DNA of 64,000 nt, taken from NCBI GenBank assembly GCA_947443645.1, contig CANEXF010000002.1, forward strand, positions 124,001 to 188,000. The letters run 5' to 3'. This document shows positions 20,360-43,321 of this stretch, one piece after another. The notes below the pieces were generated by a model. The model searched no databases. It was given only the letters and a program-made list of their open reading frames with translations, and had not been told where the DNA came from. Position numbers and translations under genes: made by a program. The DNA comes from Comamonadaceae bacterium (GTDB lineage Bacteria; Pseudomonadota; Gammaproteobacteria; Burkholderiales; Burkholderiaceae_C). Positions within the stretch are counted from its first letter, which is position 1. The number at the start of each line of letters is the position of its first letter.

Positions 20360-20845
20360 TCAGCCGACTTTAGCGATCAACTCGATTTCGACGCATGCGC
20401 CCAGCGGTATCTGGGCTACGCCAAACGCTGATCGGGCATGCGCGCCAATCGCGTTGCCAAAGACCTCGCCAAGCAGCTCGCTCGCGCCATTCGTGACCAG
20501 GTGCTGCTCTGTGAAGTCGCCCGTCGAATTCACCAGGCTCATGAGTTTGACGATGCGCGTGACATAGCTCAGGTCTTTGCCTGTGGCGACCAGTGCCGCA
20601 TGCAGCGTGCCCATCAGGTCAATCGCGACGCCGCGGGCGGCGGCCTGGCCTTCAGTTGTGCTGATGTTTTTGCCAAATTGACCGGTCCAGACGAGGCCGT
20701 CTTTTCGGGCGATATGGCCGCTCAGAAAGATCAGGTTTGCGCTTTGTGCGTAAGGCACATAGGCGGCCGCAGGCGTTGCCACGGGTGGCAGTGTGATGCC
20801 GAGTTGTTCGAGCTTTTGATAAATCGGGTGTTGACCTTGGGCCAT
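20360..20845 (-). CDS. RidA/YjgF/YER057c/UK114 family protein
   Basis: A 161-residue member of the larger (about 155-residue) RidA-like branch. The sequence has ANLIFLSGHIARKDG and EGQAAARGVAIDLMGTLHAAL, followed by YVTRIVKLMSLVNSTGDFTEQHLVTNGASELLGEVFG and the signature AHARSAFGVAQIPLGACVEIELIA with the conserved Arg that binds the substrate carboxylate. Classical RidA deaminates reactive enamine/imine intermediates of PLP enzymes; this longer branch is less well characterised, so the exact role is unknown. It is cytoplasmic. Its upstream region faces the transglutaminase gene cluster, about 100 bases away on the same strand. Confidence 0.88.
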   Translation of the reverse strand: MAQGQHPIYQKLEQLGITLPPVATPAAAYVPYAQSANLIFLSGHIARKDGLVWTGQFGKNISTTEGQAAARGVAIDLMGTLHAALVATGKDLSYVTRIVKLMSLVNSTGDFTEQHLVTNGASELLGEVFGNAIGAHARSAFGVAQIPLGACVEIELIAKVG

Positions 20846-20945: not shown

Positions 20946-21854
20946 TCAGGCCGGCTGGCCCTCGGATTCCAGTGGTGTCACGGTCACGGCCACGTCGAGT
21001 ATGTGCTGTGAGCCGCCGCGTATCACACCGCGCAGCGGCGACACGTCCAGAAAATCACGTCCTGTGGCCAGTGTCACATAGTCTTCACCGGGTGCGCGGT
21101 CATTGGTCGGGTCAAAGTCCAGCCACAGCCCGTCGCCTGGCTTGTCTGGATGCGGACAGTAGACCGATGCCCAGGCATGCGAGGCATCGCAGCCAATCAG
21201 GCGCGGCTGTCCCGGCGCCGGTTGCGTCAACATATAGCCGCTGACATAGCGCGCTGGCAAGCCCATGGCTCGGCAGCAGGCCACCATGATGTGTGCGAAG
21301 TCCTGGCAAACGCCTTTGCCTTGCTTGAGGGCTTCTAGCGCAGGCGTGTTGACTTCGGTGCTGTTGCTCTCGTAGAACATGGCGCGGTGTATGCGTCGCA
21401 TCAAGTCATGCGCGGCCTCCGGCAAGGCACGACCGGTCGGGAAGCTGGGCCCGGCAAATTGCGCAAAAGCATCGTCGCGCGGCACATAGGGCGAAGCGAA
21501 CAGGAATTCCCAGGCGCTGTTGTAGTCCGCGCCGGCCCGATAGCGAAACTTGTCTCGCACCCGTTCCCAGGGCAGCGCTGGCACCGCGTCGTGGCTGCTG
21601 GCACGGGTCGAAACCAGGCTGTCTGCCGTGACGATCAGGCTGTCGTGGCTGGTCTGAAGGGAAAAAAAGCTGCTGCTGTTGCCATAGACATCAAGCACTT
21701 CGCGCTGCTGCGCCGGCTGCGGGCTGATATGCAGGCTGTGGCGCAGCAGCTGCTGGCCGCCTGTGCTGGCTGGTTTGAGATGCACTACATGGTGGGCGTT
21801 TTCCACCGATGGGCTGTAACGGTAGCGGGTGACATGGGCAACATGAAGCAGCAT
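20946..21854 (-). CDS. Transglutaminase-like cysteine peptidase-fold protein (first module)
   Basis: A 302-residue protein. The N-terminal bacterial transglutaminase-associated beta domain starts MLLHVAHVTRYRYSPSVENAHH. The catalytic core follows: nucleophile Cys in GVCQDFAHIMVACCRAMGLPARYVSGY (about residue 182), His in DASHAWASVY (about 226) and Asp in WLDFDPTNDR (about 245), then DYVTLATGRDFLDVSPLRG. The triad is intact. Members of this family (COG1305) are usually encoded with alpha-E and circularly permuted ATP-grasp proteins, as here: the fused gene lies 3 bases upstream on the same strand. The reaction is not established; peptide cleavage or amide transfer is inferred from the fold. 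No signal peptide is visible. Confidence 0.93.
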   Translation of the reverse strand: MLLHVAHVTRYRYSPSVENAHHVVHLKPASTGGQQLLRHSLHISPQPAQQREVLDVYGNSSSFFSLQTSHDSLIVTADSLVSTRASSHDAVPALPWERVRDKFRYRAGADYNSAWEFLFASPYVPRDDAFAQFAGPSFPTGRALPEAAHDLMRRIHRAMFYESNSTEVNTPALEALKQGKGVCQDFAHIMVACCRAMGLPARYVSGYMLTQPAPGQPRLIGCDASHAWASVYCPHPDKPGDGLWLDFDPTNDRAPGEDYVTLATGRDFLDVSPLRGVIRGGSQHILDVAVTVTPLESEGQPA

Positions 21855-21857
21855 GGC

Positions 21858-24800
21858 TCAGGCACCCAGGCTGTAGTTGCCTGAGGTGGCGTGGCTGAAG
21901 TAGCGGCGGCTGATGTTGTCCGAAAGCTCGAAGGCCGCGGACTGGCAATGCTCGAGTTGCGCAATCAGCGCGTGATGACCGTGTGCAGCGCTGTCGTCTG
22001 GCGTGTTTTTCAGCAGCTCGGCCAGCTCCCAGCTGGCGGGGTCAGGCAGCGCGGCTGTCAGGTCGGCTAACTCGGGCACGGCGCTGGGCGCGCTGGCCGC
22101 CAGCTTGTCGAGACGGCCTTTGAGCGTTTGAACCACCCAGCCCAGCGAACGCGGGTTGTCGCGGTCCAGCACCAGCAGGTCCAGCAGTGCCGGAATATCG
22201 CGCCTTTGCTGGTACTGGGCATGAAAGGTGATGGTGCTGTCAAACAGCGCCACCATGGCACTGAATCCACCGTCGTCAAACACGGCACCGGTCCGAAAGC
22301 CGCAGGCCAGCGCGGCCGACAGCGTCATCAGTCGCTCGATGTGGCGGCCTATGCTGAGCAGCCGCCAGCCGTCGTCGCGCATCATGCGGTCGGTCTGCGA
22401 GCCCGTCATGGCTGCCAGGAAGCCACTGGCCGATTCCAGCGCGCGCAGCGCTTCCAGCGATGAATACTCCAGCGAATGGCTGGCGTGATGGTTGGCGGTC
22501 TTGAAGGCCTCGAAGCGGTTGAAGAAATCCGCTTCGGTTCGCACGATCACATGCCACTGTTCCTGCGACAGGCGCTCGCGCACTGCCGAGGCAGCGCTTT
22601 TGAGCGCCCGCAGATTGAAACCCACGCTGGCGCCTTGCTCAGTATTGGCCAGTCCGGCAATCAGCGAGCGTTCAAACACCCGCCTGGCCTGGCTGGCGGG
22701 CGGCACCGTGTCCAGCACCAGCGCGTTGTCAACCGCCATTTCAGTCAGCCATGACAGCAGTGGCTGTGATGACTGGTCCTCGCCACCCAGGCATTGCAGG
22801 GTCAGCTGTGCCAGCCGCAGCGAGTTCTCTGCGCGCTCGGTGTAGCGACCCAGCCAGAAGAGATTTTCTGCGGCCCGGCTGGTTACCGCCGGTTTGCGAT
22901 TCAAGGTGTTTTTGGTGGGTGCGAGCGCAGGCTGGCTTTCGCTGGACTCGACCAGCGTCTCGGGCGATGGCTGACCGGTGGCTGGCGTAAACGTGTTGGC
23001 ACTGGCGTAGCTGCTGCCCGAGGGCGTCATCTGCGACCTGGCGGATGCATCCTGCAGGTTTGCCGCACCCAGCGCCCAGACGTCGGCACTGCTGCCGCCG
23101 TGCTGCATGGAGGCGATGTTTTCGTTTTTGCCCGCCAGCCTGGCCAGGCCACCCGGCAGGACTTGCCAGGAGCCCGCGCCATCGGGTACGGCAAAGACCC
23201 GCAGCATGGCCGAACGCGGCGCTATCCTCTCGCCCTGCCAGGTCGGGTTTTGCGACAGCGGCAAGTAGCTCTGCACGGTGTAGTCCTCACCACGGCGAAC
23301 AATCCTGCCGGCCCATTCATCGAGCGCACGCTGCGACAGCGTCTGGCCTATGACGGAGTCCATGCCTGAGCCCGGATAGGTCGGCTTGATTACGCAGTGC
23401 TTGAGCTGCGGCAGCACGTCCTGCATCACGGCTTGCTCGCCGCACCACCAGGTCGCCAGCGAAGGCAGGCTCAGGGTCTCGCCCAGCAGATGCCTGGACA
23501 GCGCGGGTAAAAAGCCGAGCAAGGCGCTGGACTCAAGAAAAGCCGAGCCCGGCGCATTGGCGACCAGCACATTGCCGGCTCGAATCACCTGCAGCAGGCC
23601 GGGCACGCCCAGCGTGGAGTCAGAGCGCAGCTCCAGCGGATCCAGAAATTCGTCATCGAGCCGCTTGAGCAGACCGTGCACCGGCTCCAGTCCCTGCAAT
23701 GTCTTGAGGTAGAGCTTTTCGTTGCGCACCAGCAGGTCACTGCCTTCAACCAGGCTCAGACCCAGGTAGCGCGCAAGGTAGGCATGCTCAAAATAGGTTT
23801 CGTTGTAAGGCCCGGGCGTGAGCAGCACGATGCGGCTGTCAGGGCCCTGGCTGAGCGCCTTCATGCCGTCGACCAGCGCCTTGTAGGAAGCGGCCAGCCG
23901 CTGGACTTTCATCTCGCGGAAGGCTTCGGGGAACAGCAGCGAAATGGCCAGCCGGTTTTCCAGCAGGTAGCCCAGTCCGGACGGGGCTTGTGTGCGCTGC
24001 GACACCACCCACCAGCGGCCGTCCGGGCCGCGCGCCATGTCGAAGGCCGCGATGTGCAAAAACATGCCGCCGGCTGGCTTGACGCCTTGCATGGCGCGCA
24101 GATAGCCTGGATGGCCCTGCACCAGCGCGGCAGGCAGCAGGCCCTGGGACAGCAGGTTTTGCGGCCCGTAGACATCGGCCATGATGTGGTTGAGCAGGCG
24201 TGTGCGTTGCTTGATGCCGGTGGAGATCTGCGCCCAGTCCTGTGGCGACAAAATCAGCGGAAAAAGATCAAGTGACCAGGGGCGCTGCGGCCCGTTGGCG
24301 TCTGCATAGACGTTGTAGGTCACGCCGTTGTCGCGAATCTGTCGACGCAAATTGGCGGTGCGCCGGCTCAGGTCATGAAAACCATCAGTGCCCAGAAAGT
24401 TGAAGAAGGTGGTCCAGGGCTTGGCCAGGCCATCTGCGGCAGAAATGGCTGAAACCGGACCGGCTGCGACGGCAGCTTCTGGCGCTGGGCTGAAGGCCTG
24501 CATCTGTGCGGCGTCGAGAGGCATTGCCGGGGGCGTGCTTACGCTGCTCAGCGTCGCGCCAGAAAACTGGCTCTGGGACTGAATCTGACTCTGACTTTGT
24601 GACTGTGACTGGGCAGGAAGCAGCGAGGGCTGGGCGCGGGTGCGCCCGCGCAACTCGTCAAAATGGCCGGCGCTGGCGGGGGGCGCCAAGGCCAGTGCCA
24701 GATCTGCGGGCGACTCCAGGGCGTGGGCCGCAAAGAGTGATTTGTTATTGTTTTCCACGTTGCCCAAAGTTGCTTGCAGCCAGGGCAGTGCAAGGCGCAT
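21858..24800 (-). CDS. Fused circularly permuted ATP-grasp and alpha-E domain protein
   Basis: A 980-residue fusion. An unusual N-terminal low-complexity region (about residues 1-130) contains alternating QSQSQ. The circularly permuted ATP-grasp part then runs from about 140 to 590, with NGVTYNVYADANGPQRPWSLDLFPLIL, LLTPGPYNETYFEHAYLARYLGLSLVEG and CVIKPTYPGSGMDSVIGQ. After a Ser/Thr/Pro linker the alpha-helical alpha-E part begins SRAAENLFWLGRYTERAENSLRLAQLT (about 645) and runs to the end. In other genomes, and in the second module here, the two parts are separate genes. Such ATP-grasp proteins are predicted amide ligases (Aravind and co-workers), but no reaction is proven. The start is uncertain, with no clear Shine-Dalgarno. 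Confidence 0.92.
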   Translation of the reverse strand: MRLALPWLQATLGNVENNNKSLFAAHALESPADLALALAPPASAGHFDELRGRTRAQPSLLPAQSQSQSQSQIQSQSQFSGATLSSVSTPPAMPLDAAQMQAFSPAPEAAVAAGPVSAISAADGLAKPWTTFFNFLGTDGFHDLSRRTANLRRQIRDNGVTYNVYADANGPQRPWSLDLFPLILSPQDWAQISTGIKQRTRLLNHIMADVYGPQNLLSQGLLPAALVQGHPGYLRAMQGVKPAGGMFLHIAAFDMARGPDGRWWVVSQRTQAPSGLGYLLENRLAISLLFPEAFREMKVQRLAASYKALVDGMKALSQGPDSRIVLLTPGPYNETYFEHAYLARYLGLSLVEGSDLLVRNEKLYLKTLQGLEPVHGLLKRLDDEFLDPLELRSDSTLGVPGLLQVIRAGNVLVANAPGSAFLESSALLGFLPALSRHLLGETLSLPSLATWWCGEQAVMQDVLPQLKHCVIKPTYPGSGMDSVIGQTLSQRALDEWAGRIVRRGEDYTVQSYLPLSQNPTWQGERIAPRSAMLRVFAVPDGAGSWQVLPGGLARLAGKNENIASMQHGGSSADVWALGAANLQDASARSQMTPSGSSYASANTFTPATGQPSPETLVESSESQPALAPTKNTLNRKPAVTSRAAENLFWLGRYTERAENSLRLAQLTLQCLGGEDQSSQPLLSWLTEMAVDNALVLDTVPPASQARRVFERSLIAGLANTEQGASVGFNLRALKSAASAVRERLSQEQWHVIVRTEADFFNRFEAFKTANHHASHSLEYSSLEALRALESASGFLAAMTGSQTDRMMRDDGWRLLSIGRHIERLMTLSAALACGFRTGAVFDDGGFSAMVALFDSTITFHAQYQQRRDIPALLDLLVLDRDNPRSLGWVVQTLKGRLDKLAASAPSAVPELADLTAALPDPASWELAELLKNTPDDSAAHGHHALIAQLEHCQSAAFELSDNISRRYFSHATSGNYSLGA

Positions 24801-24848
24801 TGATGTTGCGGCGAATCAGCGTCATGACCGAGCCGAAAAAGCGTGCTG

Positions 24849-24874
24849 AATCCAGCGGTTTTCTGCGCTGGATT
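24849..24874. other. Perfect intergenic hairpin between two ATP-grasp/transglutaminase genes
   Basis: AATCCAGCG and CGCTGGATT form a perfect 9-base-pair stem with an 8-base loop in the 132-base gap between the DUF2126 gene and the ATP-grasp fusion gene. A T-rich tail follows only on the plus strand, which is antisense to both genes. An mRNA-processing or attenuation role is possible. Confidence 0.4.
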
Positions 24875-24932
24875 TTATTCCACTATCACGCTGAGTCGGC
24901 TGCGCCATGGCTTGCTCTCCAGACAATAGTCC

Positions 24933-27900
24933 TTATCGCAGATCCAGTGTGAACGGGAATTCCCGACTCGGCTGCGCCGGGCTGACCTGCATCTTGCCGG
25001 GTGTATGTCCCATCTGCAGGAAACGCGTGAGGCGGCGGCTTTCGGCCTCGTAGGAATTGACTGGCAAGCTCGCATAACTCAAGCCGCCCGGGTGCGCCAC
25101 ATGGTACTGGCAGCCGCCCAGCGAGCGCTCCATCCAGGTATCGACAATGTCAAAGGTCAGGGGCGCATGCACGCCAATCGAGGGGTGCAATGATGAAGGC
25201 GGGTTCCAGGCCTTGTAGCGCACGCCGGCGACATACTCACCCACAGTGCCTGTGCTTTGCAGCGGCAGGGCCCGGCCATTGACGGTGACCACGTAGCGGT
25301 TGTCATTGAGTCCGGTGACATGCACCTCTATCCTCTCAAGCGATGAGTCGACATAACGCGCCGTCCCAGCAGACGAGCCTTCTTCGCCCATCACATGCCA
25401 GGGCTCCAGCGCGCTGCGCAGCGTCAGCTCTATGCTGTTGACCTTGACTTGTCCGATCATGGGGAAACGGAACTCGAAGTGGGGCTCAAACCAGGCCATG
25501 TCAAACGCGTAGCCGGCCTCAGTGAGCTCGGTCAGCACATCCTGGAAGTCCGTACGCACAAAGCTGGGCAGCAAGAAGCGGTCGTGAAGCTCGGTGCCCC
25601 AGCGTGTCATGCGGCTGGTGGGTCCGAGGTAAGGCTTGGTCCAAAAGCGTGCGACCAGCGCGCGCAGCAGCAATTGCTGGGCAATGCTCATGCGCGCATG
25701 CGGCGGCATTTCAAAGGCGCGCAATTCCAGCAGGCCAAGCCGGCCTGTCGATGAGTCGGGCGAGTACAGCTTGTCAATGCAGAACTCGCTGCGGTGCGTG
25801 TTGCCCGTCACGTCCACCAAAATGTTGCGCAGCGTGCGGTCAACAATCCAGGGCGGCATGTCCTGGCCGTATTTCTCGCGGTTCATGGCGATTTCGCGCA
25901 TGGCGATCTCAAGCTCATAGAGCTGGTCGTTGCGCGCTTCGTCCACGCGCGGCGCCTGGCTGGTCGGGCCTATGAACATGCCCGAGAACAAATAGCTTAG
26001 CGACGGGTGGTTGTGCCAGTAGGCAATCAGGCTGGCCAGTACTTCCGGTTTGCGCAGGAAAGGGCTGTCGGCCGGCGTGGCGCCGCCCAGCACAAAGTGG
26101 TTGCCGCCGCCGGTGCCGGTGTGGCGGCCATCGGTCATGAATTTTTCAGCCGACAGGCGCGTTTTGTGCGCGATGTCATACAAAAACTCGGTGTGCTCGA
26201 CCAGCTCGCCCCAGTTGTAGGCGGGATGAATATTGACTTCAATGACACCTGGGTCAGGCGTGACGGCCAGCATTTTCAGGCGCGGATCGCGTGGTGGCGG
26301 ATAGCCTTCGAGGACGATTTTCAGGTTCAGGCTTTGTGCCGTGGCTTCCACTGCGGCCAGCAGGTCTAGGTAGTCTTCGAGCCGCTCCATGGGTGGCATG
26401 AAGATGTAAATTGCGCCTTTTTCGGCGTGGCCCATGCTGGTTTTGCCAGCGGCTTTGGCATCCGATTCTTTTTTTGCTTTGGGGTCTTTGGGACCGTTGG
26501 CGCGTTGCGGGTCGCGCACCTCAACGCACAGTGCTGTGCGCGTCAGCCATGCCGCGGATTCAAATGCTTTTGGTGCGCGCGTCTCTGGCTCGGTGGTCTG
26601 CGACAGCGTGGGGGCTTGGGCGGTGGGCGACTGCATTACGCGGCGGGCTTCGTAGCGTGGCGGCGTGCCCTTGGTATAGCGCTCCAGATACTGCTCGACA
26701 CGTTGCGCAGATGCACTGGCCGTCGTGCTCGCGCTTTGATAGCGCTCTGCCAATGCTTGGGTCGACGGCAGGGCGTCTCGCGGCGCAAACGGGTCGGCCT
26801 CAATCATGTAGGGGAAGTCGGTTTTGGACACCCATGGCACCGAGTCCAGTGGCAGACGGTAGCCCATCGGTGAATCACCGGGCATCAGGTACATACGCTC
26901 GTCGCGGAAGATCCACGGCCCTGTGGTCCACGCCGGGCCAGCCAGTGGCTTGGTAGAGCCTGGAATACTCTCACGCGCCTTGAGCGGCAGCACATAACCG
27001 ACAACTGAATCCAGTCCCTGCATGAAAACGCGGCGCAAACGCTCGCGTTCCATGGCGTCATCGAGTTTCGAGTCGAAGGGATCGACGTTGACCGGCAGGC
27101 GGCGCTCACGCCACATGTAGTACCAGACGTCTTCGTAGCCCGGTGTGATGAAGTCCGGCGCCAGGCCCAGCTTGTCGGCCAGCGTTGCCGTAAAACGCGC
27201 AGCATCTTCAGCCGTGTAATTGCAGGGCTCGCTCTCATTGGTAAACAGCGCCGGGTTCTTCCAGACCGGCTGGCCGTCCTTGCGCCAGAAGATGCTCAGC
27301 GCCCAACGCGGCAGCTGCTCGCCCGGATACCACTTACCCTGGCCAAAATGCAGAAAGCCGCCCTGGCCATATTCGGCACGCAGCTTTTGCACCAGTTCGG
27401 TCGCGTAACCGCGCTTGGTCGGGCCCAGCGCGTCAATATTCCACTCGGCGGCATCGCGGTCACTGGTGGCTACAAACGTGGGCTCGCCGCCCATGGTCAG
27501 TCGCACATCGCCCTTGACCAGGTCACGATCCACTGCCTCGCCCAGCGCCAGCACTTGGGCCCATTGCTCTTCTGTGTAGGGCTTGGTCACGCGCGGGGAT
27601 TCGTAAATGCGCTGCACCCCCATGTGGTGGGCAAACTCCACTTCGGATTCGTCGACGCCGCCTTCAATCGGCGCGGCGCCTGAGGGTTCGGGCGTGCAGG
27701 CCAGCGGAATGTGGCCCTCGCCGGCCATCAGGCCCGAGGTCGGGTCCAGTCCGACCCAGCCGGCACCGGGCAGAAACACCTCGCACCAGGCGTGCAGGTC
27801 TGTGAAGTCGGCTTCGGCGCCGCTTGGGCCGTCCAGCGATTTGACATCGGCCTTGAGCTGAATCAGGTAGCCGGAGACAAAACGCGCGGCCAGCCCCAAG

Positions 27901-28478
27901 TGGCGCAGCAGTTGCACCAGCAGCCAGCCGGTGTCGCGGCAGGAGCCGCAGGCGAGTTCCAGCGTTTCTTCTGGCGTTTGCACGCCGGGCTCCATGCGTA
28001 TCGAGTACTTGATGTCTGACTGCAGCTTCTGGTTGAGCCCGACCAGAAAGTCATTGGTGCGTTTTGGCGTGCGGTCTATCTTGTCGAGGTAGGCCTGAAG
28101 CAAAGGCGTTGCAGCTTCGGTCGCCAGATAGGGCGCAAGCTCGCGCGCCATGGCGTCTTCGTACTTGAAGGGAAACTCTTCTGCCTGCGGCTCCAGAAAG
28201 AAGTCAAAGGGATTGAGCACCACCATGTCGACCACCATGTCGACCGTGACCTTGAACTCGCGGGTTGCTTGCGGGAAAACCAGCCTGGCCTGGTAATTTG
28301 AGAACGGGTCCTGCTGCCAGTTGATGAAATGGTCGGCCGGCTCTATGGTCAGCGAGTAAGACAGTATCTGGGTGCGGCTGTGTGGCGCAGGGCGCAAGCG
28401 CACGATTTGCGGGCCGAGCTTGACCGGGCGGTCGTACTTGTAATGCGTGATGTGGCTGAGGGCGACGTGGATGGACAA
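24933..28478 (-). CDS. Transglutaminase-DUF2126 fusion protein
   Basis: About 1181 residues. The N-terminal half is a transglutaminase with its beta domain ([31 protein letters not shown]), nucleophile Cys in [30 protein letters not shown] (about residue 179), His in [15 protein letters not shown] (about 227) and Asp in [18 protein letters not shown]. The long C-terminal DUF2126 region carries [16 protein letters not shown], the [20 protein letters not shown] block, and a [10 protein letters not shown]-containing segment. The whole architecture (COG1305-COG4196) belongs with the ATP-grasp/alpha-E system. An upstream ATG at 28583 exists, but the family begins SIHVALSH, so the TTG at 28478 is preferred. 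The biochemical role is unknown. Confidence 0.92.
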   Translation of the reverse strand: [1181 protein letters not shown]

Positions 28479-28697
28479 GGCGGTCTCACTTCTCAATGGT
28501 TTTAACGGGCGCAGTGCAAAAAAGCTGGCGTGGTAGCGGGCACACCGTGGGGCTGTTGGCCTTTCGTGGTCCTGATACCGCAACTCTGCATGCTAGCAAG
28601 AGCTGCGCCAAAGGGCTGGCTGTAGGCTATTTTCGACGCCTATTCGTTGAAGATAGAGGCTGGAGTAGGGATGGCCTAAAAAAATAAAGGAAGCGCT

Positions 28698-31418
28698 GTG
28701 GGGGACATGATCGCATCTAAGGCATCGCCCAGCGCGCAAAAGCCGCTTGTTGCCTTGTCCTTTTCAAGCCCCTTGCTGCTGGGCCTGGTGGCAGGCGTGG
28801 CGCTTCAATTGCAGCAGTCGGCACTGTTTGCGCTATCGGTCTACGCCTTGTGCATAGCTTCTGCGCTGGCAGCGCTGCTGTTGGCGCAGGGGCGCGCTGT
28901 TTGCGCCATCTCGCGTCTTGGCCGGGCCGGTGCCAGGCCGTGGCTCTGGAGTCTGGTTTTTCTGTTGGCCCTGTCCCTGGGCTTTGGCCTGGCGGGTTTC
29001 AGGGCCGTGAGGTTTGAAAATACTGCGCTCAAGCCGGCCCTCGAAGGCAAGGATTTAGAGCTGACTGGCCGGGTGCTGGGGATGCCGCAGTTCGCCGAGG
29101 ATGGGCTTCGTTTCCGGTTCGGGCTGGATTCGGCCCGATTGAACGGCCAGGCCGTGACCCTGCCGCCGCAAATTTATCTCGGCTGGTACCAGGGCTTTGC
29201 GGCGCGGGAAAGCAAACCTAGCACCACCAGCGCCAGCCAAACGCCGGTCCTGGCCTTGCAGGACGACAGTGCCGAGCCGTCCGAGCTATCGCCGGCCTTG
29301 CAACGTCAGCCGCAAAATCTGCGTGCAGGCGAGCGCTGGCAAATGACGGTGCGGCTCAAGGCGCCACACGGCAACAGCAACCCGCACGGCTTTGACTATG
29401 AGCTGTGGCTGTGGGAGCAGGGCTTGCAGGCCACCGGTTATGTGCGTACTGGCACGCGTGACGCGCCGCCCAGAAAGCTCGGCGATGGCTGGTCGCACCC
29501 GATAGAGCGTGCCCGTCAGGCCGTGCGCGAAACGATTTTTGAGCGCGTAGCCGACAGACAGCTTGCCGGGGTGCTGGCGGCGCTGGTGGTGGGCGATCAA
29601 AACGCGATTGAGCGGGCCGACTGGGACGTGTTCCGCGCTACGGGTGTGGCCCACCTGATGAGTATTTCCGGCTTGCACATCACCATGTTCGCCTGGCTTG
29701 CATCGCTGGCGCTGGGCTGGCTTTGGCGGCAGTCGGTGCGTTGGACCCCGCGTCTGTGTCTGCGCTTGCCTGCCAGCAGCGCGGCCGCCCTGGGCGGCTT
29801 GCTGTTGGCGGCTCTGTATGCGCTTTTTTCAGGCTGGGGCGTGCCGGCCCAGCGCACCATCTGCATGCTCGCCACCGTCGTGCTGCTGAGGCAGAGCGCT
29901 AAACAGTGGCCCTGGCCCTTTGTCTGGCTGGTCGCCATGGCTGTTGTTGTGTTGCTCGACCCCTGGGCGCTGATGCAAGCGGGCTTCTGGCTGTCGTTTG
30001 TTGCCGTGGGTGTGCTGTTTGCCGCCGGGCCGCCCCAAGGCAAACAAGCCCCCTCGGGGGGCAGAGAGCTACGCGAAGCGAGCGAGCGGGGCGTTCATAT
30101 TGCTATAAATTCAGAAGCTGCTGGTGCTCGTATTTCGGGCGCTGCAGGCCAATTTGAGACTGAAAGCAGCCTCAAAAAGCGACTCTGGGTGTCTTGGCTG
30201 TCAGCGCCTCTTGCCGGTCTGGCCGGCGCCGCGCGCGAGCAGTGGGTGGTCACGCTGGCACTCACGCCTTTGTCGCTGCTGCTGTTCAACCAGGTCTCGC
30301 TGGTGGGCCTGCTGGCCAATGCCGTGGCGATTCCCTGGGTCACGCTGGTCGTGACGCCGCTGGCCATGCTGGGTGTCTTGTGCGCACCGGTCTGGACCGC
30401 GGCGGCCTGGACTGTCAGCTTTTTGACAAGCTTTTTGCAATGGCTGGCGGCCTGGCCGCTGGCGACCGTAAATGTGGCGGCTGCGCCTTTGTGGTGTGCT
30501 GCGGCTGGCGTGGCCGGTGGCGTGTTGCTGGCCATGCGTCTGCCATTTCATTGGCGAATGCTGGGACTGCCGCTGCTGCTTCCGGTGCTGCTATGGCAGC
30601 CCTTGCGACCGCCATCTGGCCAGTTCGAGGTGCTGGGCGCCGACATTGGGCAGGGCAATGCGCTGATCGTGCGTACCGCCAGTCACAGTCTGGTTTACGA
30701 CAGTGGTCCGCTCTTTTCGAGTGAAAGCGATGCCGGCCACCGGGTGCTGGTCCCTTTGCTGCGGGCTCTGGGCGAGCGCGTGGACATGCTCATGCTCAGT
30801 CACCGCGACATGGACCATATAGGCGGCGCGCCTGCCGTTTTGGCGATGCAGCCGCAGGCGCAGCTGGTGAGCTCCATAGAAGACAGCCATGTGCTGCAGA
30901 CGGTGCGCAAGTCCACGCGCTGTGTGGCAGGTCAGCATTGGCGCTGGGATGCGGTTGATTTTGAAGTCCTGCATCCTGCCGCTGGCGATTACGACAAGGC
31001 AGCCCGCTCAAACGCCATGAGTTGCGTGCTGCGCATCTCCAACGGCAGGCAGACTGCGCTTCTGGCCGGAGACCTCGAAGCGCCGCAGGAGCTGGCACTG
31101 GTGGCCGACGCGGGCGCCAGAGACAAGCTCAAGGCTGATTTTTTGCTAATGCCTCACCATGGCAGTAAAACTTCATCGAGCGCGCAGTTTCTTGACGCGG
31201 TCCGCCCTCAGTTTGCGCTGGCCCAGGCTGGCTACCGAAACCGTTTTGGTCACCCGGTCGAGCTGGTGCTTGCGCGCTACCGTGAGCGCAGCATCGACGT
31301 TATCAAGTCGCCCGAGTGCGGTGCAGCCACCTGGCGCAGCGCGCAACCCGCGCAAGTGCTTTGCCAGCGCCAGCAAGGGCTGCGCTATTGGCATCACAGG
31401 CTGACCTCTACGCCGTAG
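28698..31418 (+). CDS. comEC: DNA internalisation-related competence protein ComEC/Rec2
   Basis: A 906-residue inner-membrane channel for single-stranded DNA uptake. The order is N-terminal membrane helices, a DUF4131 soluble OB-like part (about 110-260), the competence domain of multiple helices with ATGVAHLMSISGLHITMFAWL and FSGWGVPAQRTICMLATVVLL, then a C-terminal metallo-beta-lactamase domain with LSHRDMDHIGGAPAVL (about residue 700) and FLLMPHHGSKTSSS. The GTG at 28698 has an AAGGA 7 bases upstream; an ATG at 28707 is an alternative. Residues about 443-490 are encoded by two dispersed repeats (A then B) inserted in frame between membrane segments, which is odd. Confidence 0.93.
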   Translation: MGDMIASKASPSAQKPLVALSFSSPLLLGLVAGVALQLQQSALFALSVYALCIASALAALLLAQGRAVCAISRLGRAGARPWLWSLVFLLALSLGFGLAGFRAVRFENTALKPALEGKDLELTGRVLGMPQFAEDGLRFRFGLDSARLNGQAVTLPPQIYLGWYQGFAARESKPSTTSASQTPVLALQDDSAEPSELSPALQRQPQNLRAGERWQMTVRLKAPHGNSNPHGFDYELWLWEQGLQATGYVRTGTRDAPPRKLGDGWSHPIERARQAVRETIFERVADRQLAGVLAALVVGDQNAIERADWDVFRATGVAHLMSISGLHITMFAWLASLALGWLWRQSVRWTPRLCLRLPASSAAALGGLLLAALYALFSGWGVPAQRTICMLATVVLLRQSAKQWPWPFVWLVAMAVVVLLDPWALMQAGFWLSFVAVGVLFAAGPPQGKQAPSGGRELREASERGVHIAINSEAAGARISGAAGQFETESSLKKRLWVSWLSAPLAGLAGAAREQWVVTLALTPLSLLLFNQVSLVGLLANAVAIPWVTLVVTPLAMLGVLCAPVWTAAAWTVSFLTSFLQWLAAWPLATVNVAAAPLWCAAAGVAGGVLLAMRLPFHWRMLGLPLLLPVLLWQPLRPPSGQFEVLGADIGQGNALIVRTASHSLVYDSGPLFSSESDAGHRVLVPLLRALGERVDMLMLSHRDMDHIGGAPAVLAMQPQAQLVSSIEDSHVLQTVRKSTRCVAGQHWRWDAVDFEVLHPAAGDYDKAARSNAMSCVLRISNGRQTALLAGDLEAPQELALVADAGARDKLKADFLLMPHHGSKTSSSAQFLDAVRPQFALAQAGYRNRFGHPVELVLARYRERSIDVIKSPECGAATWRSAQPAQVLCQRQQGLRYWHHRLTSTP
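30027..30097 (+). repeat. Dispersed repeat A, copy 2, translated inside comEC
   Basis: GGGCCGCCCCAAGG, then CCCCCTCGGGGGGCAGAGAG and CTACGCGAAGCGAGCGAGCG, ending GGCGTTCAT. Same block order as copy 1 (12067) and inverted copy 3 (34186). It is read in frame as GPPQGKQAPSGGRELREASE within ComEC. Confidence 0.8.
30101..30166 (+). repeat. Dispersed repeat B, copy translated inside comEC
   Basis: TGCTATAAATTCAGAAGCTG, then CTGGTGCTCGTATTTCGGGC and GCTGCAGGCCAATTTGAG. It follows repeat A after three bases, so comEC carries a composite A+B insertion. It is read in frame as AINSEAAGARISGAAGQFET. Confidence 0.6.
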
Positions 31419-31559
31419 CCTGGCCCGCTTGACGCGCGCATCATGTCGTTCTGGCGACAGGCCGGGCGATTAAACGCAGGCGCGTAAGGCTCTCTGGCGC
31501 ATAACTTGCTAAGCTATCTGCACAAGTCTGTACCTTAAGCGCAGCCGGAGAAATAGCAC

Positions 31560-33035
31560 ATGAGTCGACCGATGTTTGATGAAATGAACCTGAGCGCTGA
31601 AAGCGTGCGCGAACATTACCAGGACTACCAGCGTTGGCTGTCCCGCCAGCCAGCAGACGCCATGCAGGCCAGGCGCGCAGAGGCGGAGATGATCTTCCGA
31701 CGCGTCGGGATTACCTTTGCGGTCTACGGCGACAAGGATGAAGACGGCTCGGGCACCGAACGCCTGATTCCCTTTGACCTGATCCCGCGCATCATTCCTG
31801 CGCACGAATGGGCCAGCATGGAAAAAGGTCTGGTGCAGCGCGTCACGGCACTCAATCGCTTTATCCACGACGTCTACCATGGCCAGGAAATTCTCAAGGC
31901 CAGCGTGATCCCGTCCGAGCAAATTTTCCAGAATGCCCAGTTCCGACCCGAGATGATGGGCGTTGATGTGCCGGGCAATATTTACTCGCACATCAGCGGC
32001 ATTGACATTGTTCGCGCGCCCGATGCAAGTGGCGCCGGCGAATATTACGTGCTCGAAGACAATCTGCGGGTGCCCAGCGGCGTGAGCTATATGCTGGAAG
32101 ACCGGAAAATGATGATGCGGCTGTTTCCGGAGTTGTTCAGAGAAAACCGGGTCGCGCCGGTCGCGCATTACCCCGACCTGCTGCTGGAAACCCTGCGTGC
32201 CTCTGCGCCGCCGGCCACCGCCGACCCGACCGTGGTCGTGCTGACGCCTGGCATGTACAACTCGGCTTATTTTGAACACGCCTTCCTGGCGCAGCAAATG
32301 GGCGTGGAGCTGGTCGAAGGCCAGGACCTGTTTGTCAAGGACAACTTTGTCTACATGCGGACCACGCGCGGCCCGAAACGCGTGGACGTGATTTACCGCC
32401 GTGTCGACGATGACTTCCTGGACCCGCTGGCCTTCCGCCCGAGCTCGACGCTGGGCTGCGCGGGTCTGCTCAATGTCTACCGCAGCGGCAACGTGGCGCT
32501 CTGCAATGCGATAGGCACAGGGGTGGCAGACGACAAGTCGATTTACCCCTATGTGCCCAAGATGATCGAGTTCTACCTTGGTGAAAAGCCGATTCTGAAA
32601 AACGTGCCGACCTTCATGTGCCGCAACCCAGAAGACCTCAAATACACCCTGGCCAACCTGAAGGACTTGGTGGTCAAGGAGGTTCACGGCGCCGGCGGCT
32701 ATGGCATGCTGGTCGGGCCGGCCTCTACCAAGGCGGAAATCGAGGCGTTTCGCGCGGCCCTGATTGCCAACCCGGCCGGCTATATTGCCCAGCCCACGCT
32801 CAGCCTGTCGACCTGTCCGACCTATGTCGACAGCGGCATCGCGCCACGCCACATTGACTTGCGGCCGTTTGTACTCAGCGGCAAAGAGGTCCAGATGGTG
32901 CCTGGCGGCCTGACGCGTGTCGCCTTGAAAGACGGCTCGCTGGTGGTGAATTCATCGCAGGGCGGTGGTACCAAAGACACCTGGATTCTGGAGTCGGACG
33001 CCCCGGCAACGCTCCAGTCGCAATCTCAAGGCTAA
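31560..33035 (+). CDS. Circularly permuted ATP-grasp protein (second module)
   Basis: A 491-residue stand-alone DUF404/DUF407-type protein. It starts MSRPMFDEMNLSAESVREHYQDYQRWL and shows FRRVGITFAVYGDKD, ERLIPFDLIPRIIPAHEW, YYVLEDNLRVPSGVSYMLEDRKMM, VVLTPGMYNSAYFEHAFLAQQMGVELVEGQDL, and the ATP-grasp-like VVKEVHGAGGYGMLVGP with the C-terminal DLRPFVLSGKEVQMVPGGLTRVA. A GGAG lies about 9 bases before the ATG. Genes for an alpha-E protein and a transglutaminase follow on the same strand. It is predicted to form an amide or peptide bond; the substrates are unknown. It contains the GYG loop that the fused homologue in the first module has as GSG. Confidence 0.94.
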   Translation: MSRPMFDEMNLSAESVREHYQDYQRWLSRQPADAMQARRAEAEMIFRRVGITFAVYGDKDEDGSGTERLIPFDLIPRIIPAHEWASMEKGLVQRVTALNRFIHDVYHGQEILKASVIPSEQIFQNAQFRPEMMGVDVPGNIYSHISGIDIVRAPDASGAGEYYVLEDNLRVPSGVSYMLEDRKMMMRLFPELFRENRVAPVAHYPDLLLETLRASAPPATADPTVVVLTPGMYNSAYFEHAFLAQQMGVELVEGQDLFVKDNFVYMRTTRGPKRVDVIYRRVDDDFLDPLAFRPSSTLGCAGLLNVYRSGNVALCNAIGTGVADDKSIYPYVPKMIEFYLGEKPILKNVPTFMCRNPEDLKYTLANLKDLVVKEVHGAGGYGMLVGPASTKAEIEAFRAALIANPAGYIAQPTLSLSTCPTYVDSGIAPRHIDLRPFVLSGKEVQMVPGGLTRVALKDGSLVVNSSQGGGTKDTWILESDAPATLQSQSQG

Positions 33036-33046
33036 GGAAATCAATC

Positions 33047-33208
33047 ATGTTGTCACGCACCGCTGACCATCTCTTTTGGATGTCCCGCTACACCGAGCGC
33101 GCCGGCGATATGCCGCAGGCATTCGCGGGGAGGGCTCACCAATTGCGCGAAGCGCTTGTGACGACATCACCAAAATACGCAAAGCGCGTCAGCGCTTTCG
33201 GTGTTTGA
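33047..33208 (+). pseudogene. Truncated duplicate of the alpha-E gene start (53-codon relic ORF)
   Basis: An ORF with a GGCTAAGGAAA ribosome binding site begins MLSRTADHLFWMSRYTERAG. This matches the first 19 residues of the intact alpha-E protein at 33224 (MLSRTADHLFWMSRYTERAE). It then diverges into unrelated sequence (DMPQAFAGRAHQLREALVT) and stops at 33208. The duplicated leader, including the ribosome binding site, is a direct repeat 177 bases apart. It still has a start and a stop codon, so a 53-residue peptide could be made. The unrelated approximately 100 bases are of unknown origin. Confidence 0.7.
33062..33104 (+). repeat. Direct repeat, first copy of the alpha-E leader
   Basis: GCTGACCATCTCTTTTGGAT and the following bases to CGAGCGCGCC are identical to 33238-33280, 176 bases away. 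The flanking ribosome binding site is also nearly repeated (GGCTAAGGAAA in both). It marks a partial tandem duplication. Confidence 0.9.
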
Positions 33209-33223
33209 GGCTAAGGAAAAGAC

Positions 33224-34186
33224 ATGCTATCAAGAACCGCTGACCATCTCTTTTGGATGTCCCGCTACACCGAGCGCGCCGAAAACACCGCCCGCATGCT
33301 GGATGTCAACTACCAGACGTCCTTGCTGCCGCAGTCGGCCGGCGCCGCTCAGGTCGGTTGGGCCGGCCTGCTCAGCATCAGCGAGCTCAAGCCCTTGTAC
33401 GCGACCAAGTATGGCGAGACGATTTCCCCGCGCAAGGTCATGGACTTCATGGTGCGCGACGAGACCAATTCATCGAGCATTGTTTCGTGCCTGAAAAACG
33501 CCAGGGAAAACGCCAGGGCTGTTCGCGGCACGCTGACCACGGAAGTCTGGGAAACCGAGAACCAGACCTATCTTGAAGTCATACGCATGCTCAAAAACGG
33601 TGACTTTGAACGTGATCCGGCACAGTTTTTCGAGTGGGTCAAGTTCCGCTCACACCTGTCACGCGGCGTCACCGCAGGCACCATGCTGCAGGACGAAGCT
33701 TTTCACTTTTTGCGCCTGGGCACCTTTTTGGAACGCGCCGACAACACCGCCCGTCTGGTGGATGTGAAGTTTCACGCCGTACAAAGTGATTTCCTTGGCC
33801 TGGCCACGGAGAAAGACCAGGAATTCGATTTCTACCACTGGAGCGCCATCTTGCGCAGCGTCTCCGGCTTTGAGGTCTACCGCAAGGTCTACCGTGATGT
33901 CATCAAGCCCGAGCGCGTGGCCGAACTGCTGATCCTTAGGCCCGACATGCCGCGTTCATTGCTCGGTTGCCTCAACGAAGTCATGAGCAATCTGGCCATG
34001 GTGACCAGTGACTCGGGCAGCGAAACGCTGCGCCGGGCTGGCAAGCTGCGCTCCGATTTGCAGTACGCCCGCATAGACGAGATTCTGGCCAATGGCTTGC
34101 ATGCCTTCTTGACCCAGTTTCTTGACCGGGTGAACGAGCTGGGCGCACACCTGAGCCGCGAGTTTCTGGTGCCGGCCACGAGTTGA
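33224..34186 (+). CDS. Alpha-E domain protein (DUF403, second module)
   Basis: A 320-residue all-alpha protein starting MLSRTADHLFWMSRYTERAENTARMLDVNY, the DUF403/COG2307 signature that is also seen in the C-terminal part of the fused protein at 21858. Later conserved blocks are FEWVKFRSHLSRGVTAGTMLQDEAFHFLRLGTFLERADNTARLVDVKF and LLILRPDMPRSLLGCLNEV. It lacks a signal peptide and membrane helix. It is always found with circularly permuted ATP-grasp proteins and transglutaminases, and it sits between those two genes here. A scaffolding or substrate-holding role in amide-bond formation is predicted; nothing is demonstrated. Confidence 0.93.
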   Translation: MLSRTADHLFWMSRYTERAENTARMLDVNYQTSLLPQSAGAAQVGWAGLLSISELKPLYATKYGETISPRKVMDFMVRDETNSSSIVSCLKNARENARAVRGTLTTEVWETENQTYLEVIRMLKNGDFERDPAQFFEWVKFRSHLSRGVTAGTMLQDEAFHFLRLGTFLERADNTARLVDVKFHAVQSDFLGLATEKDQEFDFYHWSAILRSVSGFEVYRKVYRDVIKPERVAELLILRPDMPRSLLGCLNEVMSNLAMVTSDSGSETLRRAGKLRSDLQYARIDEILANGLHAFLTQFLDRVNELGAHLSREFLVPATS

Positions 34187-34240
34187 TGAGCCCCCACGGT
34201 CGTTCACTTCGTCTAACTCCCTGCCCCCCGAGCGGGCCGC
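34186..34240 (-). repeat. Dispersed repeat A, copy 3 (inverted)
   Basis: The reverse complement reads GCTCGGGGGGCAGGGAGTTA, then GACGAAGTGAACGACCGTGG and GGGCTCAT, matching copy 1 block for block. It begins on the last base of the alpha-E stop codon and fills the space before the transglutaminase gene, so it separates two genes that are adjacent in this module. Confidence 0.8.
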
Positions 34241-34343
34241 TGCGCCTGCAGCCCGGCAAAGCCGGTTCTGCGGCCCCTGTTTGAAGGGACTTCTCCTAGC
34301 AGCCGGTTTTGCGTGGTTTTCGCTCCGAAATGACAGTGAATCA

Positions 34344-35162
34344 ATGAAGCTCCATATTCGCCACACTACCGACTATCGTTACAGCGAACCGCTGCTGTAT
34401 GCCTTGCAAACGCTGTGGCTGACACCGCAGTCCAGTGCCGCGCAAACCGTCAATTTCTGGAGTGTGGGTGCGCCTGAAAAACTGTTTGTACAGACCGATG
34501 CCTTCGGCAACACCATTCAGTCCTACACCTTTGTAGGTCAGCCTGCAGACAACGTGCGCTGGAGCCTGGTCAACGCGGCTGGTGAGGTTCAGACCTGGGG
34601 CGTGGCTGAATTCACTGATGCCGAAAGTCTGCCCCACCCTTACTTCTTTTTGCGCGCCACGCAGCTGGCCGAGCCGCATTGGCAGCTGGCTGAATTTGGT
34701 CGTCGGTTCATACAACAAAGCACCGACGGACGCGCCGATCTTCAAGCCTTATTGGCTCTTAGCGCAGGCGTGGCGGGCGCAGTCAGCTACCAAAAAAATA
34801 GCAGCAATGTCACCACCACGGCCTTGCAGGCGTTTCAAGCCGGTGCCGGCGTGTGCCAGGACCAGGCGCATGTGATGGTGGCGATTTGCCGCAGCCTGGG
34901 CTACCCCGCGCGTTACGTCAGCGGCTATTTTTACGCCGCCAACGAGCCCGATCTGGCCAGCCACGCCTGGGTCGATGTCTGCCTGGATGTCGCCACCCGG
35001 CGCTGGGTCAGCATAGACGTGACGCACCACTGCCTGATCGACGAGCGCCACATTCGCCTGGCCATGGGCACTGACTACAACGCCTGCCCGCCGGCCAAGG
35101 GCGTGCGGCAGGGGGGGGGCGAAGAGCGTATGACGGTGACGATCACGATTGAGCCGGTCTAG
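34344..35162 (+). CDS. Transglutaminase-like protein (second module)
   Basis: About 272 residues. The beta domain starts MKLHIRHTTDYRYSEPLLYAL. The core shows Cys in GVCQDQAHVMVAICRSLGYPARYVSGY (about residue 171), His in DLASHAWVDVCLD (about 206) and Asp in RWVSIDVTHHC (about 224), so the triad is intact. A repeat-B copy encodes the ALSAGVAGAVSYQKNSS segment (about residues 134-156), apparently tolerated between beta domain and core. A run of nine G near the 3' end (35111-35119) codes for GGG and could slip. The 3' 246 bases are duplicated at 43082-43321, beyond the dioxygenase island. Confidence 0.93.
   Translation: MKLHIRHTTDYRYSEPLLYALQTLWLTPQSSAAQTVNFWSVGAPEKLFVQTDAFGNTIQSYTFVGQPADNVRWSLVNAAGEVQTWGVAEFTDAESLPHPYFFLRATQLAEPHWQLAEFGRRFIQQSTDGRADLQALLALSAGVAGAVSYQKNSSNVTTTALQAFQAGAGVCQDQAHVMVAICRSLGYPARYVSGYFYAANEPDLASHAWVDVCLDVATRRWVSIDVTHHCLIDERHIRLAMGTDYNACPPAKGVRQGGGEERMTVTITIEPV
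34741..34809 (-). repeat. Dispersed repeat B, copy translated inside the transglutaminase gene
   Basis: The reverse complement opens TGCTGCTATTTTTTTGGTAG, then CTGACTGCGCCCGCCACGCC, like the copy at 56078 (GCTATTTATTTGGAAGCTG then TCTGCGCCCGTCGG). It lies in frame between the beta domain and catalytic core. Confidence 0.6.
34917..35162 (+). repeat. Direct repeat, left copy (transglutaminase 3' end)
   Basis: The last 246 bases of the intact transglutaminase gene, from the VSGYFYAANEPDLASHAW codons to the stop, recur with about nine in ten bases matching at 43082-43321. The repeats bracket the dioxygenase/ABC island. Confidence 0.9.
35111..35119 (+). repeat. Homopolymer run of nine G near the 3' end of a transglutaminase gene
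   Basis: Nine consecutive G occur in the codons for the GGG stretch. The duplicate at 43082-43321 has the interrupted GGGCGGCGGC at the same place, so the run arose or was extended in this copy. Confidence 0.85.
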
Positions 35163-43017: not shown

Positions 43018-43321
43018 TTGACGCTGCACATCAAGCACATCACGTATTACCGCTAAACGGAGTCACTGCGCTACGCGCTAAGTCAGTGGCTGTTTTTGCG
43101 CCGCCAACGAGCCCGATCTGGCCAGCCATGCCTGGGTAGATGTGTGCCTGGATGTCGCCACCCGGCGCTGGGTCGGCATAGACGTGACCCATCACTGCCC
43201 GATCGACGAGCGCCACATACGCCTGGCCATGGGTACCGACTACAACGCCTGCCCGCCGGCCAAGGGCGTGCGCCAGGGCGGCGGCGAAGAACGCATGACG
43301 ATCACGATTGAGCCGGTTTGA
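43018..43321 (+). pseudogene. Decayed, internally deleted transglutaminase gene copy
   Basis: From 43021 the frame reads TLHIKHITYYR, a stop, then TESLRYAL, which corresponds to the first 20 residues of the intact transglutaminase (MKLHIRHTTDYRYSEPLLYAL). About 170 codons are then missing, and the sequence resumes in another frame at VSGCFCAANEPDLASHAW through to the ITIEPV end and stop at 43319-43321. The catalytic Cys region is deleted, but the His and Asp blocks remain. This is a remnant of a second paralogue, not a functional gene. It marks the right edge of the dioxygenase island. Confidence 0.88.
43082..43321 (+). repeat. Direct repeat, right copy (transglutaminase 3' end)
   Basis: It matches 34917-35162 over nearly its full length, with scattered third-position differences such as SIDVTHHCL versus GIDVTHHCP. 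The intervening 7.9 kb is the island. Confidence 0.9.

Follow-up and report, generated by a model that had tools for sequence, protein, structure and literature searches.

A Comamonadaceae bacterium (GenBank assembly GCA_947443645.1, contig CANEXF010000002.1, positions 124,001 to 188,000; this stretch of 64,000 nucleotides is here called the window) carries two sets of transglutaminase, ATP-grasp and alpha-E genes, one on either side of comEC. Do they represent two systems or one? The initial annotation of the window, made by a model from the letters and their open reading frames (ORFs), described two parallel, duplicated modules. We reject this description, given that single-operon forms of the same genes are found in relatives. 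Two points go beyond that annotation: what stands here as two sets is a single operon in many relatives, and the ATP-grasp that is fused to alpha-E lacks inferred magnesium (Mg) and ATP residues. Our best explanation, to which we give an even chance, is one amide- or isopeptide-forming system that is induced by nitrogen limitation, with an operon split around comEC in this genome, a non-catalytic fused ATP-grasp, and glutamine tracts as likely targets or docking tags.

Gene arrangement around comEC

The minus-strand half consists of TG-DUF2126, a transglutaminase domain with a putative amidoligase domain (24933-28583, an ORF of 1216 residues; Pfam Bact_transglu_N, Transglut_core and DUF2126), AGaE, in which a circularly permuted ATP-grasp is joined to alpha-E (21858-24800, 980 residues; CP_ATPgrasp and Alpha-E), and TG1, a stand-alone transglutaminase-like protein (20946-21854, 302 residues; Bact_transglu_N and Transglut_core). 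The plus-strand half holds AG2, a free circularly permuted ATP-grasp (31560-33035, 491 residues; CP_ATPgrasp, with a match to structure 3n6x), a free alpha-E protein (33224-34186, 320 residues; Alpha-E) and TG2, a third transglutaminase (ORF 34281-35162, likely ATG near 34344; Bact_transglu_N and Transglut_core). Between both halves lies comEC/rec2 (28698-31418, plus strand, identified by Pfam), for which no functional link is known. Every family named here scores above its curated cut-off, and CP_ATPgrasp, Alpha-E and Bact_transglu_N/Transglut_core genes are adjacent both in the window and in relatives. Pfam confirms all gene positions and families of the initial annotation. Its length of about 1,180 residues for TG-DUF2126 agrees with a start that, judged from the domain start and homologue alignment, is probably near 28478; the differing fusion state of the two sets, the amide-bond-forming families and the intact Cys-His-Asp triads of all three transglutaminases (GVCQD, ASHAW and DFDPT in TG1) hold as well.

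For comparison we drew on 40 stretches from 39 family genomes, a further 40 from the phylum and 80 named loci. The divergent layout around comEC recurs in 12 of the 40 family stretches (L006-L011, L013-L017 and L019; TG1 was not found within the fetched stretches of L009 and L019). Ten family stretches carry the order AG2, alpha-E, TG-DUF2126, AGaE, TG1 on a single strand (L020-L025, L029, L031, L034 and L035), and four have the single-strand order TG-DUF2126, AGaE, TG1, AG2, alpha-E (L026, L030, L032 and L033). Two Burkholderia loci (L110 and L112) and Burkholderia cenocepacia (L239) have AG2, alpha-E, a transglutaminase, TG-DUF2126, AGaE and TG1, all on one strand. Fused alpha-E is present in 40 of 60 family genomes, 31 of which have a free alpha-E on the same contig, 3.5-22 kilobases (kb) away. 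For the remaining nine, free alpha-E is on another contig in seven, and for two the listing shows no complete free copy; contig breaks explain part of these cases, because in G048 and G050 the start of AG2 lies on the contig of the fused set. In a phylum sample of 249 genomes, 75 have DUF2126, and at least 33 of these have a free alpha-E within 17.2 kb of it (in one, G156, alpha-E was counted as free by score alone). No free alpha-E was seen near DUF2126 in the other 42, among the matches listed, so the linkage is frequent, not obligatory.

Several local features accompany the cluster. L018 (G026) has the divergent layout with AGaE, TG1, AG2 and alpha-E, and no TG-DUF2126 was detected in its fetched stretch. 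L074 (G276) has a shorter, strongly diverged transglutaminase and DUF2126 pair in two frames, with no ATP-grasp or alpha-E detected in its 20-kb stretch. In the window, a 53-codon stub ORF (33047-33208, plus strand) precedes the free alpha-E gene: the first 59 bases of that gene (33223-33281) are copied upstream at 33046-33104, and a GC-rich spacer comes next. Such stubs occur in 5 of 85 alpha-E loci, namely the window, G010 (two extra copies), G023, G034 and G015, those besides the window being listed as L028, L009, L029 and L013. Their spacers have a motif in common, and a search of the genome itself and the fetched loci found no second full copy of the spacer except in stubs. A 235-bp direct repeat (91%) of the TG2 3' end, at 34909-35143 and 43074-43308, brackets a block that looks as though it had been inserted beside TG2; it encodes a branched-chain amino-acid-type ABC transporter, a LysR regulator and a ring-hydroxylating dioxygenase. 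Next to TG1 lies a Rid/YjgF-family gene (20360-20845), and many family stretches likewise have one close to the cluster or to comEC.

Promoters, nitrogen and glutamine tracts

Each half is headed by a sigma-54-like -24/-12 element that is conserved in relatives. Both window sites read TGGCGC-N5-TTGCT, one upstream of the TG-DUF2126 half (28595-28610, minus strand) and one 49 bases before AG2 (31495-31510, plus strand). Each has one mismatch to the strict consensus, and the window holds six such sites in all, these two included. If two mismatches are allowed, the window as a whole has no more sites than chance would give (64 versus 64.8), so the weight falls on the position of these two and on their conservation in relatives. 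Across the loci we used TGGCRC-N5-TTGCW, a pattern widened to TGGCRC after the window sites had been seen. Of 180 unit heads, 66 (AG2 33/80, TG-DUF2126 33/100) have a site no more than 200 bases away with one mismatch or none, versus 7 of 418 controls (Fisher P 5e-31, overstated by kinship). The controls were genes inside units, comEC and Rid; 53 unit-first genes (AGaE 48, TG1 2, alpha-E 3), all of them without a site, were excluded from this count.

Published expression data also concern these genes. The B. cenocepacia cluster I35_5080-83, comprising DUF404/407, DUF403, a transglutaminase and a large transglutaminase, is reported to drop 6- to 9-fold in an ntrC mutant and to be among the common NtrC and sigma-54 targets (PMC5491218); we match it to the L239 arrangement solely from the succession of its domains. 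In Pseudomonas putida, PP_2686-2688 are reported up 11- to 15-fold in the wild type under nitrogen limitation, and the authors consider the operon likely to be NtrB/NtrC-controlled (PMC7801951). PP2685-2687 are listed as induced elsewhere (PMC3325844), and in marine metagenomes these domains are described as associated with urea metabolism (PMC3597751). The system is thus probably switched on by nitrogen shortage. A Caulobacter NtrC report concerns another gene, and no mention of the system was found in a Paraburkholderia nitrogen transcriptome paper.

Proteins of both halves carry alternating glutamine tracts. AGaE has AQSQSQSQSQ at residues 63-72 (24585-24614, minus strand) with mixed serine codons; the C-terminal tail of AG2, LQSQSQG, is below our threshold of at least three [S/T/G/A]-Q dipeptides. 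In 85 Comamonadaceae-rich loci, the window included, tracts occur in 37 of 347 system proteins versus 2 of 445 ORFs outside the system with 200 codons or more (Fisher 5e-12, a value that ignores kinship and is too small), and 32 loci have at least one. They are found in AG2 (13/62; near residue 10 in five and at the C-terminus in eight), TG1 (9/72; C-terminal in eight of the nine), AGaE (9/74; N-terminal in four, between the domains in four, later in one), alpha-E (4/60; near residue 190) and Anbu-type transglutaminases (2/9). None is present in TG2 (0/1) or TG-DUF2126 (0/69, and 0/63 in 76 other loci).

The tracts may be transglutaminase substrates. That they are instead neutral low-complexity expansions, tolerated in flexible ends, is a serious alternative, which we rate somewhat below an even chance. 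They sit in ends, linkers and loops, vary between genera and are absent from 310 of the 347 proteins, and the repeat patterns were chosen after the tracts had been noticed. Neutral expansion does not readily account for their rarity in neighbouring ORFs, nor for their coding: the dipeptide is coded in at least three ways in 36 of 42 tracts, often with TCN and AGY serine codons mixed, which argues against simple repeat slippage and suggests protein-level selection. At the nucleotide level, four copies of WSNCAR have a single match in the 3.2-Mb (megabase) genome itself, inside AGaE (C2:148585-148608, window 24585-24608). In the 60 family genomes, a hand count gives at least 30 distinct loci with all four codons Ser/Thr; of 30 such loci listed, seven fall in the system and two more are AG2 N-terminal loops (9/30, in about 0.3% of each genome). 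Seventeen of the 21 places outside were inspected; many are perfect hexamer repeats or small frames, and a few, judged by eye, resemble genuine genes (a kinase, a KefC-like tail and a histidine-phosphatase-like protein).

The ATP-grasps and transglutaminases

In the ATP-grasp tree, free and fused proteins form the two sides of one branch (SH-aLRT, the approximate likelihood-ratio support, 100; length 0.94); the tree covers 210 of 224 rows (14 Pseudomonas loci dropped) and was made by a quick method that gave long-branch warnings. AG2 and the fused ATP-grasp are old paralogues, which agrees with the claim of the initial annotation that the sets are not simple tandem copies, and a recent duplication is rejected on the long, fully supported branch. 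The nearest named relatives of both are from Polaromonas, also Comamonadaceae (86% for the fused protein, 94% for the free one). The fused ATP-grasps of two loci are out of keeping with their titles: L102 (an Akkermansia muciniphila metagenome-assembled genome) groups with Limnohabitans-type sequences and L159 (one of Klebsiella pneumoniae) with betaproteobacterial ones, so that both are likely mislabelled or contaminated bins.

The ancient split of the ATP-grasps would also fit two independent neighbouring pathways that act on separate substrates, one an Anbu-type set and the other a TG-DUF2126 set. Further points in favour are the 42 of 75 phylum-sample genomes in which no free alpha-E was seen near DUF2126 among the matches listed, and some family loci (L036-L043) that show the free set alone. 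We nevertheless consider independent pathways unlikely: the genes form single-strand clusters in Burkholderia and many Comamonadaceae, the promoter type is common to both halves, glutamine tracts occur on proteins of both, and in L054 and L057 TG-DUF2126 stands with AG2, alpha-E and TG1, and the fused gene is absent from the fetched stretch.

Within a single system, the two ATP-grasps appear to differ in activity. AG2 aligns end to end with 3n6x (728 bits); the fused ATP-grasp also aligns (283 bits), but its LEDNLRxPSG, VADDK and GGYG motifs differ. The inferred Mg/ATP-site residues D149, E166, N168, R170, K326, K373, G379, G380 and G382 are kept in 88 of 88 free ATP-grasps. Among 136 fused-type domains (135 seen fused, one on a short contig), the inferred Mg pair E166 and N168 is kept together in none and E166 alone in one, and K326 and the loop glycines are mostly lost too. 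Seven further loci, chosen from 60 listed plasmid hits, agree: the residues are lost in three of three fused copies (B. cenocepacia, Tsukamurella of the Actinomycetota and Granulicella of the Acidobacteriota) and kept in five of five free copies (B. cenocepacia, Hymenobacter, Deinococcus, Paenibacillus and Tsukamurella). The initial annotation had named loss of the ATP-binding residues in both ATP-grasps as evidence against its proposal; the fused protein has lost them and AG2 keeps them. A free-type ATP-grasp, that of the Yersinia Anbu operon, is reported to release phosphate from ATP (PMC6376114).

The putative functions of these residues come from glutathionylspermidine synthetase (GspS) and trypanothione synthetase (TryS). 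In an alignment between AG2 and the GspS family that is not significant overall (E 0.49), from which we infer the residue mapping, D149, E166, N168, K326 and K373 fall on Escherichia coli GspS D318, E330, N332, K498 and K533. The co-linear match came from the GspS family alignment alone; hhalign against single-sequence GspS gave no useful match. In TryS, the reported Mg ligands are Asp330, Glu344 and Asn346, and Lys513 and Lys548 hold the phosphates of ATP (PMC3581523). A paper on the E-64 ATP-grasp showed no link to the system.

Because the inferred Mg pair is lost in 136 of 136 domains and a different motif is conserved instead, AGaE is a predicted pseudo-ATP-grasp. It could also be a working ligase with a rebuilt active site and a new use of ATP or another donor, and the replacement itself is indeed conserved: R-x-Q stands for N-x-R (Arg at position 168 in 128/136, Gln at position 170 in 124/136), and E239, D256, D288 and R435 are invariant in all 136. 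Such a ligase would have to work without the Mg pair and, in most cases, without K326 and the loop glycines, positions at which the free family is invariant, and we regard it as improbable.

The transglutaminases look intact. In relatives, the triad is kept in TG1 (Cys and His 132/132, Asp 131/132), in the transglutaminase domain of the DUF2126 fusion (122/122 at each residue) and in TG2 and Anbu-type transglutaminases (Cys 18/19, His and Asp 19/19). The best relatives of TG2 in the 60 family genomes are one cluster copy (G058, 48%) and transglutaminases that follow free alpha-E (37-40%). DUF2126 shows strong conservation, with a mean column identity of 53% over 52 homologues versus 38% for 50 fused ATP-grasp-alpha-E proteins.

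Proposed mechanism and known systems

Gene content, linkage in relatives, conserved promoters, residue patterns and tracts are direct observations, and linkage and residue states are well supported. On this basis we propose that NtrC and sigma-54 would turn on both halves. AG2, with alpha-E as helper, would activate a carboxylate as acyl phosphate and join the acyl group to an amine. AGaE, with an R-x-Q motif conserved in its own right, would no longer bind Mg-ATP and could serve as a non-catalytic partner that holds substrate or regulates. TG-DUF2126, TG1 and TG2 would act on glutamine amides or isopeptide bonds, the tracts on AG2, alpha-E, TG1 and AGaE being the likeliest in-house targets or docking tags, and Anbu, encoded elsewhere in the genome, is perhaps the matching hydrolase. 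This chemistry is inferred. A bolder version, which we consider a long shot, is that the system modifies itself: the transglutaminase domains would act on Ser/Thr/Gly-Gln tags of AG2, alpha-E, TG1 and AGaE, and under nitrogen starvation the ligases would use their own tails to carry, cross-link or store peptides or amide nitrogen, which Anbu would remove. In that version TG-DUF2126, tract-free in every locus examined, would likely be the writer or eraser.

The known Anbu operon has the order ATP-grasp, alpha-E, transglutaminase, Anbu, as described in PMC6376114 and PMC5666114. Here the Anbu ORF (302 residues, C2:29676-30581) lies about 125 kb from the plus-strand half and none follows TG2 directly, so a place inside the cluster is rejected. 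The ORF shares 50-62% identity with Anbu from five further Comamonadaceae loci (L012, L036, L037, L042 and L043), and an Anbu ORF is present in 50 of the 60 family genomes. In L047 the fused set adjoins a complete Anbu operon, and in L054, L057, L072 and L073 Anbu, AG2, alpha-E and TG-DUF2126 share one stretch. The operon proteins are reported as not essential under non-stress conditions (PMC5666114).

Several results weigh against our explanation, besides the unlinked genomes, the many tract-free proteins and the weak GspS alignment noted above. In the 76 other loci, tracts occur in 4 of 254 system proteins versus 1 of 546 (P 0.04, kinship ignored), a weak signal. The putative ligase role of DUF2126 rests on its Pfam name and description: it had no significant match to solved structures, nor to GCS2 and Amidoligase_2 profiles, which were shallow, lacked a positive control and used template ORFs chosen for their length where the match lay. 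Purified Yersinia Anbu is reported to have neither peptidase nor amidase activity and to form no complex with its operon partners (PMC6376114), which speaks against a simple protease role. PP_2686-2688 also rose 14- to 20-fold in an rpoN mutant, and PP_2685 (Anbu) changed 1.1-fold in the wild type (PMC7801951), which argues against simple sigma-54 control in P. putida. The literature is thus mixed on NtrC and rpoN dependence, and the case for nitrogen induction is stronger than that for a particular sigma factor. Because the Burkholderia and P. putida studies disagree, our confidence fell from slightly above even to even. That the genes form a biosynthetic cluster whose product is a small secreted peptide seems doubtful; this is close to the idea of the initial annotation, a poorly known peptide or peptide modification, and in line with the peptide-synthesis role proposed for the families by Iyer et al. 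2009, as PMC5666114, PMC6376114 and PMC3597751 cite it. We doubt it given that nitrogen-limitation induction and wide distribution (alpha-E in 145 of the 249 phylum genomes) suggest a general function.

Alpha-E, ATP-grasp, transglutaminase and Anbu genes are widespread, yet the literature searched named neither a settled reaction nor a substrate, and that on Mycobacterium held nothing useful on the system. A pseudo-ATP-grasp or glutamine tracts found no mention in the literature searched, which covered few subscription papers. The nitrogen-limitation signal, a naturally occurring, apparently dead ATP-grasp as built-in negative control and candidate substrates in the tracts make the question open to direct experiment.

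The system itself is already known from Iyer et al. 2009 and the Anbu operon papers. The three gene families of the plus-strand half are those that open the Anbu operon, in the same order, this genome has an Anbu gene, and the P. putida operon is reported to respond to nitrogen limitation (PMC7801951, PMC3325844). It differs in that Anbu is remote, AG2 and alpha-E are linked to the TG-DUF2126 and fusion set, and TG2 is a divergent member. The rlo operon of Pseudomonas aeruginosa (PMC12239564), compared by description only, likewise pairs a transglutaminase-like protein with an ATP-grasp protein, but has an inactive membrane transglutaminase and secreted retropepsin-like proteases, and its abstract names neither alpha-E nor DUF2126. 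Glutathionylspermidine and trypanothione synthetases share the aligned positions of the inferred AG2 Mg/ATP residues, without significant overall similarity. Iyer et al. 2009 reportedly described alpha-E, ATP-grasp and transglutaminase amidoligase systems of the same domain families and may have commented on the fused ATP-grasp. Relative to those systems, as described in citing papers, we list here the split operon, the predicted dead fused ATP-grasp, the glutamine tracts and the sigma-54-like heads.

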